A DNA stretch of 64,000 nucleotides from Buchnera aphidicola (Brachycaudus tragopogonis) (GTDB taxonomy: Bacteria > Pseudomonadota > Gammaproteobacteria > Enterobacterales > Enterobacteriaceae). The notes beneath the pieces were generated by a model. It was not told where the DNA came from, did no database searches, and saw nothing but the letters and a program-made list of their open reading frames with translations. The stretch spans positions 434,001-498,000 of the forward strand of contig NZ_OZ060418.1 of NCBI RefSeq assembly GCF_964059175.1, given 5' to 3'. Within the stretch, counting starts at the first letter, position 1. Every line of letters starts with the position of its first letter. Made by a program: the position numbers and the translations under genes. Shown one piece after another: positions 23,856 through 57,341 of the stretch.

Positions 23856-24846
23856 TCATTCTTTTATATCATTTTTAGATAAAACATTCAATGGATTTAT
23901 AGATTTTCCTTTGTAACGTATTTCAAAATACAATTGTGCTGTTTTCTTCTGAGATAATCCCATTGTCGAAATTTGTTGATTTATACTTACTTTCTCTTCT
24001 TGTTTTACTAAAATCATATCATTAAAAGCATAAATACTATGATAATTTTGATTATGTTTTAAAATAATTAATCGACCATATTTTTTAAACATGTCAGTAA
24101 TAAATACTACTTTTCCTGAAGCTGCAGCAAAAACAGGTTGCCCTTTAAAGCCAAAAAATTCTATTTCTTTATTAGTTGATTTATCATCATATTCATATCG
24201 AATATGTTTACTTTTAATAGGCCAGTCCCATTTTTTATCTGAGTTAAAATATTTTTTGTTATTAACTATTTTGTTACAAAACAAACATATTTTACTTGTT
24301 TTATATTGTATATATTTTTTAAAAAAACTTGAAGCTTCAAATTTTTTGTTAAATATTGTTTGGCAAGCAGTATATTTTTTTTTATCATTTTTATTTAAAT
24401 TTATAATAAAGCAATTATTCTTAATTTCATTTATTAAAAAATCTCCTATCCATATTTTTTGACCTATCATGATTTTATAAGGTTTTTTAATAAAATTTAC
24501 TTTAGACAATTCATAATAACTATGGCCAGATTTTTTAGCAATGGAATAAAGAGTGTCTTTTGGTTTAACAACATAAAACATTTTAAATCGATCTTCTTGA
24601 AAAATACCAAAAAAATTTTTATTACTAATATTCAATATATCTTGTTTTATAAAGTTTTTTTTTTAATTTAAACAATGAAAAACATTCATTTTTATTTAAA
24701 AAATTTAACTTTTTTTTATTTAAGTAAATATTTGAATAATTTTGATTCTTAATTAATAATGTCTTATTACCTTTCTGAAGAGACATACTTAAAGAAATAT
24801 TGCAATAAATCAATGATAAACACATAAAAAAAAATTTTAATAACAT
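23856..24846 (-). CDS. nlpD: Murein hydrolase activator NlpD, split by an A10 frameshift
   Basis: NlpD is an outer-membrane lipoprotein that activates amidase AmiC during septum splitting in E. coli. The C-terminal part (23856-24635) carries a LysM domain (FYVVKPKDTLYSIAKKSG) and a degenerate LytM domain (AAASGKVVFI, GRLIILKHNQNYHSIYAFND, LYFEIRYKGKSINPL). A 73-residue upstream frame (24625-24846) begins with a hydrophobic signal and candidate lipobox LIYC. The frames meet at an A10 run (24655-24664, minus strand). Losing one A, or gaining two, joins them into about 329 residues. In E. coli nlpD is followed by rpoS, which is absent. The downstream part alone would lack an export signal. Confidence 0.8.
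24655..24664 (-). other. A10 slippage tract in nlpD
   Basis: Ten A residues on the coding strand lie at the transition between the signal-peptide frame and the LysM/LytM frame of nlpD. A nine-A transcript would encode one continuous lipoprotein. Slippage rescue is inferred; true inactivation or a sequencing error remain possible. Confidence 0.7.
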
Positions 24847-55388: not shown

Positions 55389-56411
55389 ATGAAAATTATA
55401 CCCCCAGAACACCTTAAAGAATCTTTAATTAACAACTTAAATTCTTGTTATGTTCTTTTAGGAGAAGATTTATGTTTAATAAATAAAAATCAAAATTTGA
55501 TTTTAAAGTATGCCAATCAAAAAGGATTTACAGAAATAATTATTATTGATATAAAACATGATACAGATTGGAAAAAAGTAATTAATTTTTGCAAAACAAG
55601 AAATTTATTTCTAAAAAAAACAAGTTTAATTGTTAATTTCATTACAAAAACGCTAAATATTAGTTTAGTCAAAAATATTAATAGAATATCTTTTTTATTA
55701 AATGTAGAAATTTTAATACTATTAAAATTAAATCACCTATCAGGTTGTATTCAAACAAAAAAAATACTAGATAAGTTGCAATTTTTTAGCAGTATAATTT
55801 CTTGTTTTACACCTTATAACATAAATTTTAATAGATGGATTAAACATGAAATTTATGAAAAAAATATCAATATAGAAAAACAAGCTTTTTTTTTGTTATG
55901 TAAATACTATGAAGGAGATACTTTATTTATACATAAAGTTTTAGATGTGTTATCAATGACATTTCCTAATACTGATATTACATTAGAAAAAATTAAAAAA
56001 GTGATTCTTGATTGCTTTAATTTTTCAGAATTACATTGGATTAATGCTATTTTTCAAGGACAAACAAAAAAAGCTATTTATATTTTAAATATCTTTCATC
56101 AACAAAAATACAATCCTTTAATTTTAATACGTCAACTGCAAAAAGATTTACTAATATTAATTTATATGAATCGTGATAAAAATATTAATGTCAATATGTT
56201 TTTAAAACAAAACAATGTTTGGAACACACGATATAAATTTTTTATAAATGCTCTTAATAAAATTAATAATCATATTTATTTAAAAGCAATAACAATTTTA
56301 GTCAATATAGAAATTAATATTAAACAAAAATATAACAATTCTGTATGGATTCAATTACAAGAACTAACTTTAATGATAAGTTCACTGATATTTTATAAAT
56401 CAATAAACTAA
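55389..56411 (+). CDS. holA: DNA polymerase III delta subunit
   Basis: Delta subunit of the clamp loader that opens the beta sliding clamp. The 340 residues (E. coli 343) align along the whole length, with low identity typical of fast-evolving symbiont genes: AYVLLGED-like YVLLGEDLCLI near residues 22-32, DTDWKKVINFCKTRNLF, CKYYEGDTLFIHKVLDVLS, LHWINAIFQGQTKKA and SVWIQLQELTLM. It lies between leuS and nadD as in E. coli. Confidence 0.93.
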   Translation: MKIIPPEHLKESLINNLNSCYVLLGEDLCLINKNQNLILKYANQKGFTEIIIIDIKHDTDWKKVINFCKTRNLFLKKTSLIVNFITKTLNISLVKNINRISFLLNVEILILLKLNHLSGCIQTKKILDKLQFFSSIISCFTPYNINFNRWIKHEIYEKNINIEKQAFFLLCKYYEGDTLFIHKVLDVLSMTFPNTDITLEKIKKVILDCFNFSELHWINAIFQGQTKKAIYILNIFHQQKYNPLILIRQLQKDLLILIYMNRDKNINVNMFLKQNNVWNTRYKFFINALNKINNHIYLKAITILVNIEINIKQKYNNSVWIQLQELTLMISSLIFYKSIN

Positions 56412-56414
56412 AAA

Positions 56415-57055
56415 ATGAAAAAATTACATGCAATATTTGGTGGAAATTTTGATCCAATTCATTATGGTCATATTTATTCTGCTGAAAAATTAGCACAAAG
56501 ACTATCTATAGAAAAGATAATATTGTTACCGAATAATAATCCTCCACATCGAGCGCAAACAAAAACATCTATTATAGATAAAATTAATATGATTAAACTT
56601 GCAGTATATGATAATTCTTTATTTGAAGTAAGTTATTTAGAAATAGAAAGAAAACATGTATTTTTCACTGTAGATACATTAAAAAAAATTAGAAAAAAAA
56701 TAGGTTTTTTACAATCTTTATGTTTTATAATAGGTGAAGATAACTTACAAAGTTTTAACTTATGGAAAGATTGGAAAAAAATATTATTATATTCTCACTT
56801 ATTAATTTGTCCTAGAAAATATAAAAAAAAAATTATTCATTAACACAATGGATCAACTCTCATATTACAAGAGATGCTAATATTTTACATCAAAAACCAT
56901 TTGGATATATTTTTTTTTCAGATATAGAAACTATCAACATTTCTTCCAGTCAAATAAGAGAGAACTATTTTTCTGGTAAAAGTTCATATGGACTCTTACC
57001 TCCAATGGTACATAAATATATTATATTAAAAAAATTATACTATAATCAATTATAG
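56415..57055 (+). CDS. nadD: Nicotinate-mononucleotide adenylyltransferase, split by an A10 frameshift
   Basis: Makes deamido-NAD from nicotinate mononucleotide and ATP, an essential NAD step. The first 142 residues carry the nucleotidyltransferase motif GGNFDPIHYGH (residues 9-19) and FIIGEDNLQSF, then stop at TAA 56841-56843. The rest is in another frame: TQWINSHITRDANIL and the C-terminal motif NISSSQIREN with a stop at 57055. One extra A in the A10 run 56823-56832 joins them into about 213 residues, the E. coli length. Without the tail the conserved ISSSxIR motif would be lost, so function depends on slippage or on a sequence error. It starts three bases after holA. Confidence 0.88.
56823..56832 (+). 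other. A10 slippage tract in nadD
   Basis: Ten A residues mark the exact change of frame in nadD. An 11-A transcript restores the full enzyme. Both halves keep family motifs, which argues that selection still acts on both. Confidence 0.75.
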
Positions 57056-57104: not shown

Positions 57105-57341
57105 ATGAAAAAAAAAAATAATATTATATTAAATTTAATTGGACTTCGATGTCCAGAACCAATTATGATTATTCGGAAAACACTTCGAAATATGAAAAAC
57201 AACGAAAAAATATTAGTATTAGCAGATGACCCTTCTACAAAAAGAGATATTCCATATTTCTGTCATTTTATGGAACATCAATTAATCGAACATAATATTA
57301 AAATTAAACCATATCGTTATTTATTAAAAAAAGGATTATAA
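57105..57341 (+). CDS. tusA: Sulfur carrier protein TusA
   Basis: Accepts sulfur from IscS as a persulfide and passes it to the TusBCD relay for 2-thiouridine formation in tRNA. The 78-residue protein (E. coli 81) has the active-site motif [15 protein letters not shown] with the sulfur-carrying cysteine at residue 16. An A11 run at 57108-57118 forms its second to fifth codons in frame. It stands after nadD with its own upstream spacer. Confidence 0.95.

Follow-up and report, generated by a model that had tools for sequence, protein, structure and literature searches.

Does a gene whose reading frame is lost on the chromosome still make its protein? The question is raised by nadD in the window, by which we mean the whole stretch of 64,000 nucleotides analysed here, part of the 643,003-base chromosome of Buchnera aphidicola (Brachycaudus tragopogonis). 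In NAD synthesis NadD (nicotinate-mononucleotide adenylyltransferase) acts after PncB and before NadE, and its gene is interrupted here within a run of A (Table 1). We consider it probable, at roughly 70%, that nadD still works although the chromosome encodes it one base out of frame from this run onward, its message being repaired by polymerase stutter.

An earlier note, made from the sequence alone, had described nadD as frameshifted at an A10 run, with a GGNFDPIHYGH motif in the first 142 residues and a part with NISSSQIREN in another frame. All of this was borne out: the run at 56823-56832 holds exactly ten A, the first motif lies in the ORF 56415-56843, and the second frame is open to the TAG at 57053-57055. 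The length of 213 residues that the note gave for an 11-A message was also recovered by count (136 + 77 = 213 codons).

The defining motif of NadD is GGxFDPxHxGH, and a second motif, ISSxxIR, has a role in ATP binding. The N-terminal nucleotidyltransferase half with the first motif is present, and the C-terminal part with the second follows in order, but in another frame; a single frame of about 210 codons is absent, the 142 codons being followed by the frame change. The N half matches the profile TIGR00482 at positions 1-132 (E 6e-43) and the C half, in its own frame, at positions 145-194 (E 2.6e-8). The two halves also match NF000839 in order, at positions 5-138 and 148-217, and the two ends of the same solved NadD enzyme, the C half matching the end of 6kg3_A and 1k4k_A (residues 147-212, E 1.6e-7).

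Table 1. Positions of nadD, its A run and the adjoining genes in the window.
Feature	Position	Strand	Remarks
holA	55389..56411	+	Intact here, directly 5' of nadD; named from the syntenic APS copy
nadD, first part	56415..56843	+	142-codon open frame to an out-of-frame TAA at 56841-56843; nucleotide-binding half with GGNFDPIHYGH
A10 run where the frame is lost	56823..56832	+	Exactly 10 A; a message longer by one A (or shorter by two) is back in frame
nadD, second part, next frame	56831..57055	+	74 codons with NISSSQIREN; TAG at 57053-57055
tusA-like gene	57105..57341	+	3' of nadD, in frame here; named from its own sequence

Three bases separate holA from the start of nadD at 56415. The gene at 57105..57341 we take to be tusA-like from its sequence. 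It has an A11 run of its own at 57108-57118, directly after the start codon and in frame, and slippage there would spoil part of the tusA-like messages. This gene was aligned in 35 of the 36 genomes described below, while in G014 it was not found within the stretch searched; the sole frameshift called among its copies is in G024, at the last residues.

Distribution of run-associated frameshifts in the genus

The sample comprised 36 genomes of the genus (the window's own and 35 congeners), which were searched at the DNA level and gave a nadD match in every case, weak in G019. Each copy was aligned to intact proteins with frame changes allowed, the A runs were listed, and the procedure was repeated on longer stretches. 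Events lying no more than 6 residues from the start, or 14 from the end, were disregarded. In G017 and G004 the aligner placed end events, but the frames are open for 210 codons, and both were counted as intact. On this basis nadD is intact in 19 genomes, carries one frameshift in 15, is decayed in G019 (locus L045), where the alignment holds 5 frameshifts and 6 stops, and is unreadable in G014 (L043). In the latter an A12 run at the window's site is followed immediately by N's in the assembly. Since 15 of the 36 genomes are broken, the break is no private accident of this strain, and that explanation was rejected.

All 15 breaks lie at runs of A9-A12, at one of two sites. The window's site is broken in six genomes (the window's own, G000, and G009, G026, G034, G003, and G012), all of which would be put back in frame by one added base (or by the loss of two). 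The other site lies near residue 80 and is broken in nine (G025, G013, G033, G018, G016, G022, G028, G031, and G005), five of them needing one base more and four one fewer. Over both sites one more base is needed in 11 of the 15 breaks and one fewer (or two more) in 4. The downstream frame of the 15 broken copies contains no stop before the natural end and no extra indels; nadD thus has the single indel in a run of 9 or more A/T, with the rest of the gene intact, that characterizes poly(A) frameshifts of endosymbionts.

A species tree was made with FastTree from 18 neighbouring genes and midpoint-rooted for drawing. On it a break at the window's site is seen in the window's genome, in G009 as its nearest relative, and in G026, as well as in both members of the pair G012/G034; the second site is broken in 8 of the 9 members of one clade. 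Nearest relatives can be unlike in frame class: G018 is -1 and G033 +1, G028 is -1 and G016 +1, and G013 is +1 with G015 intact. With G019 and G014 coded as not broken, parsimony requires a minimum of 3 changes per site; treating the frame classes as separate states raises the minimum at the second site to 6. Tree distances are 0.217 within the window trio and 0.337 within the second-site clade, as compared with 0.198 for A. pisum/A. kondoi and 0.345 for A. pisum/U. ambrosiae, pairs whose divergence has been put at 27+/-8 and 41+/-7 My, respectively (PMC3164680). If rates are alike, the broken clades are therefore some tens of millions of years old, an age that applies to the clades and not necessarily to the broken state of each lineage.

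The frames of 29 genes in the syntenic 40 kb were compared over the same 36 genomes as a control (31 ORFs were found, and two antisense ones were dropped). Of a possible 29 x 36 = 1044 copies, 24 were absent and 8 were excluded as decayed (three or more events), so that 1012 were usable. A single frameshift was present in 61 of these; copies with two events stay in the 1012 and are not among the 61. A/T runs of 9 or more make up 1.1% of the coding bases and account for 54 of the 61 frameshifts, an excess that is more than chance. The frameshifts are concentrated in a few genes: lgt has 16 single frameshifts, nadD 15, recC 12, holA 5, and dsbA 4, with 1 or 2 in each of seven further genes and no single frameshift in the 36 genomes for the other 17 of the 29. 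The off-run exceptions include one lgt and three recC events. To restore the frame, one added base would be needed at 42 of the 54 run-associated breaks and one removed base at 12. The APS strain (G029) has an intact nadD and no run-associated shift in any of the 29 genes. The gene nadD is, then, one of a small set of run-shifted genes and not unique.

Two other members of this set deserve description. The single frameshift of lgt (APS copy, L071:11774-12619), as recurrent as that of nadD, was found in 16 of the 36 genomes near residues 41-52, in both directions and with no stops called; 15 of the 16 breaks are at runs of 9 or more, and no break was called in the window's genome. The recC gene (APS copy, L072:6501-9713) is shifted in 12 of the 36 genomes at several places; a run of 9 or more is involved in 9 of these cases, and the run in G016 consists of 20 A. 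Over the whole window, an alignment was obtained for 54 of the 61 ORFs in the APS stretch. Besides nadD there was one run-associated break, in an NlpD-like gene, and one ORF with an early stop near its end, in which a sister genome is alike; an overlapping antisense ORF that appeared broken was taken as spurious. The NlpD/ActS-like murein hydrolase activator gene (23856-24846, minus strand) is split at an A10 run near 24666, and the same gene is shifted in the sister genome G009, at an A12 run.

The NAD pathway and selection on broken copies

Matches to pncB and nadE above the curated cut-offs were obtained in 35 of the 36 genomes, including all 15 with a broken nadD; the only genome below the cut-offs is G019, where nadD is also decayed. 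The pncB matches in the 35 genomes contain no stops. A stop was present in the aligned stretch of 10 of the 35 nadE matches, and because all 35 genomes have open frames of 269 or more codons these stops were interpreted as the ends of the genes. The pncB gene of G019 is fragmented, with stops in three of its four pieces, and for nadE this genome gave only a weak second match that is also seen in the other genomes. The three genes thus go together, which indicates that the genomes with a broken nadD have not given up the pathway. With nadD and pncB decayed and nadE below the cut-off, G019 presumably gets NAD or a late precursor another way.

A second NMN adenylyltransferase of family PF01467 was considered as a backup in the window's genome and rejected, since the two other PF01467 proteins there are CoaD and RibF. 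The premise of the earlier note that nadD is needed for NAD is supported both by the retention of pncB and nadE and by the lack of any other NMN adenylyltransferase-like PF01467 protein in the genome. In addition, nadDEK have been listed as core essential genes of Enterobacteriaceae (PMC11481867). The gene is probably indispensable.

Codon models gave an omega of 0.172 after the window's site in the broken trio and of 0.155 in all six genomes broken there, a set that joins at least three origins of the break. After the second site omega was 0.138 in the eight broken clade members; G005, the ninth genome broken at this site, stands outside that clade and was left out. Values in three intact groups were 0.101-0.167 after the first site and 0.094-0.186 after the second. 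An omega of 1 (with kappa held at its estimate) was rejected in all sets, the likelihood ratios of the broken ones being 23.9 for the trio, 63.6 for the six, and 156.3 for the eight. The earlier note had named neutral drift after the tract, with stops and dN/dS near one, as the outcome that would overturn its reading; the trio departs clearly from it, and there are no stops. Direct counts were made for eight pairs. The pair G000/G009 gave 0.36 after and 0.35 before the window's site, the intact pair G032/G011 0.42 and 0.41, and the highest value after this site, 0.51, was reached both by broken G018/G033 (with the break at the other site) and by intact G017/G020. The protein end is less constrained than the start in most pairs, broken or intact. 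Broken nadD copies are about as constrained as intact ones, and purifying selection acts on either side of the break, as in poly(A) frameshifts of endosymbionts. If all breaks were very young, the low omega would partly reflect intact ancestors, above all in the six-genome set.

Restoration of the frame

According to the explanation that we prefer, RNA polymerase would stutter on the A10 run and yield messages of mixed length. Those with one extra A (or two fewer) would encode the full 213-residue NadD, and the remaining ones a 142-residue stub. The earlier note had called slippage rescue a strong explanation. The comparative data support that interpretation overall; the slippage step itself, with repair during transcription, its efficiency, and the making of full-length enzyme, is what we infer from them, RNA-polymerase slippage being the most likely restoring step. 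Of 157 transcription insertions reported in Buchnera, 151 were located in homopolymer runs, indel errors becoming exponentially more frequent as runs lengthen (PMC5574713). For other frameshifted genes of endosymbionts, 12-50% of the transcripts were found to be corrected (PMC5009743). The excess of breaks that need one more base fits polymerase slippage; a mutational bias toward one-base loss would give the same excess. Two observations count against the proposal. The 4 of 15 nadD breaks that need one base fewer (or two more) would call for a rarer slip, and in Buchnera LSR1 of the pea aphid no frame-restoring transcription error was detected (PMC5574713). The latter speaks against frequent repair, though nadD is intact in the APS strain of that aphid.

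The full-length protein might also be made by ribosomal -1 frameshifting on A AAA AAA, instead of or together with transcriptional slippage. Any run of 9 or more A, the A10 of the window included, holds this slippery heptamer, and a -1 slip of the ribosome acts like the extra base that most of the breaks need. The other features of programmed -1 frameshifting, a conserved downstream structure and a fixed site and direction, are lacking, however: the breaks are at two sites, 4 of the 15 need the opposite direction as against 11, and the 8 broken genomes that were folded out of the 15 have no consistent structure downstream, with z from -0.41 to 1.48 in 7 and of -2.16 in one. Frameshifting stimulated by such a structure was rejected as the main mechanism because the 8 folded genomes share none. 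Ribosomal slippage is possible for the +1 class, and we regard this route to the protein as improbable.

Buchnera cells are polyploid, and some of their chromosomes could hold an in-frame run, the assembly showing the commonest length only. The unlike frame classes of sister species indicate that the A run mutates often, and single-base indel polymorphisms have been observed within Buchnera samples (PMC3164680). Even so, in 15 of 36 species most copies would be broken and would have to be tolerated, and a mixture of lengths in the DNA is very unlikely to be the explanation.

A sequencing or assembly error in the A10 run has to be weighed in view of where it lies: long A runs are where such errors occur, poor coverage of poly-A regions has been reported (PMC3890641), and in G014 the N gap comes straight after the A12 at the window's site. 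Base-calling error should not choose genes, however, and runs of equal length should suffer equally. At coding runs of A10 or more, a shift was present in 12 of 23 cases for nadD, as against 36 of 335 for the other 28 genes combined (Fisher p 4e-6, a value that is too small, since related genomes are not independent), and this unevenness argues against error. Within the 40 kb of the window's own genome, 39 coding A/T runs reach a length of 9 or more, and the one in nadD is the only shifted one. The three nearest lineages (the window's, G009, and G026) are all broken at one site. Another 14 assemblies have nadD broken at long A runs, five of these breaks being at the window's site, which makes chance error unlikely; taken together these observations leave error in the A10 run with very little probability.

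It is just as hard to believe that nadD is a pseudogene in early decay, recently broken in a strain that no longer needs the enzyme. That the pathway can be lost is evident from G019, but real decay there looks unlike the 15 broken copies, which show omega of 0.14-0.17 after the break and neither extra stops nor extra indels, in genomes that have all kept pncB and nadE. A split protein made from two starts was rejected, since the N part alone is without the C-terminal motif and an ATG or TTG in the downstream frame (residues 142-185 or 83-140) was found in 7 of the 15 broken genomes and in none of the other 8, the window's among them; in the window's genome there is no ATG, GTG, or TTG between the tract and NISSSQIREN.

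If polymerase slippage is the restoring step, the encoded frame of nadD might be nearly neutral to selection. The chromosome would then wander between +1, 0, and -1 over tens of millions of years, at either of the two runs, with selection acting on the restored protein only, and nadD, lgt, recC, holA, and dsbA would be alone in the 40 kb in living so. Slippage at long A runs would supply some in-frame message whatever the length of the run, and the tolerant genes might perhaps be those where little product suffices. We put this forward tentatively, as an idea that may well prove wrong.

The locus offers a natural controlled case, in which a gene that is probably indispensable has lost its frame in 15 of the 36 genomes sampled from one genus. 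Since closely related genomes encode nadD with -1, 0, and +1 runs, run length, slippage rate, and enzyme level could be compared directly. Pseudogene calls based on frame can be wrong in AT-rich symbionts, and genes can be ranked by their tolerance of message-level repair.

Comparison with known systems

Frameshifts in A runs that are rescued by slippage are established in Buchnera and Blochmannia (PMC5009743, PMC3017870, PMC3164680). Neither the main text of PMC3164680 nor PMC5009743, in the portions available, names nadD, and the excerpts of PMC11481867 and PMC3890641 contain nothing on the nadD break. A literature search for nadD frameshifts or slippage in endosymbionts gave no such title among the matches listed; the 2019 Buchnera comparison (Chong et al.), which may list the break, was outside this search. 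No match was found in a plasmid collection, and a scan of genome contigs returned six remote bacteria and no Buchnera.

In Blochmannia the shifted state is reportedly frozen, as Wernegreen et al. are said to have concluded in 2010. The break in nadD is unlike this, in that run length and frame class vary between sister species. It resembles the long-kept frameshifts of Blochmannia, where shifts in A/T runs have persisted across species and the genes show no detectable decay (PMC3017870).

The closest parallels are the poly(A) frameshifts of Buchnera and Blochmannia (Tamas et al., 2008, via PMC5009743 and PMC3164680), where a single indel is likewise found in a long A run of an obligate insect symbiont. 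In those systems messages are partially corrected, which for nadD is proposed here from DNA sequence; unlike them, the nadD break has been traced over 36 genomes and to two alternative runs of one gene. Convergent frameshifts at homopolymers, in which the same gene is shifted independently and its function may persist, have been described by Degnan et al. (2011, PMC3164680), with murF shifted independently in four Buchnera lineages. Whereas eight genomes were tabulated in that study, the nadD analysis determined omega both before and after the break and used the pathway partners of nadD as a test of function. We conclude that nadD is a further, unusually recurrent case of a known phenomenon, and that its unusual feature is the two-site pattern with a wandering frame.
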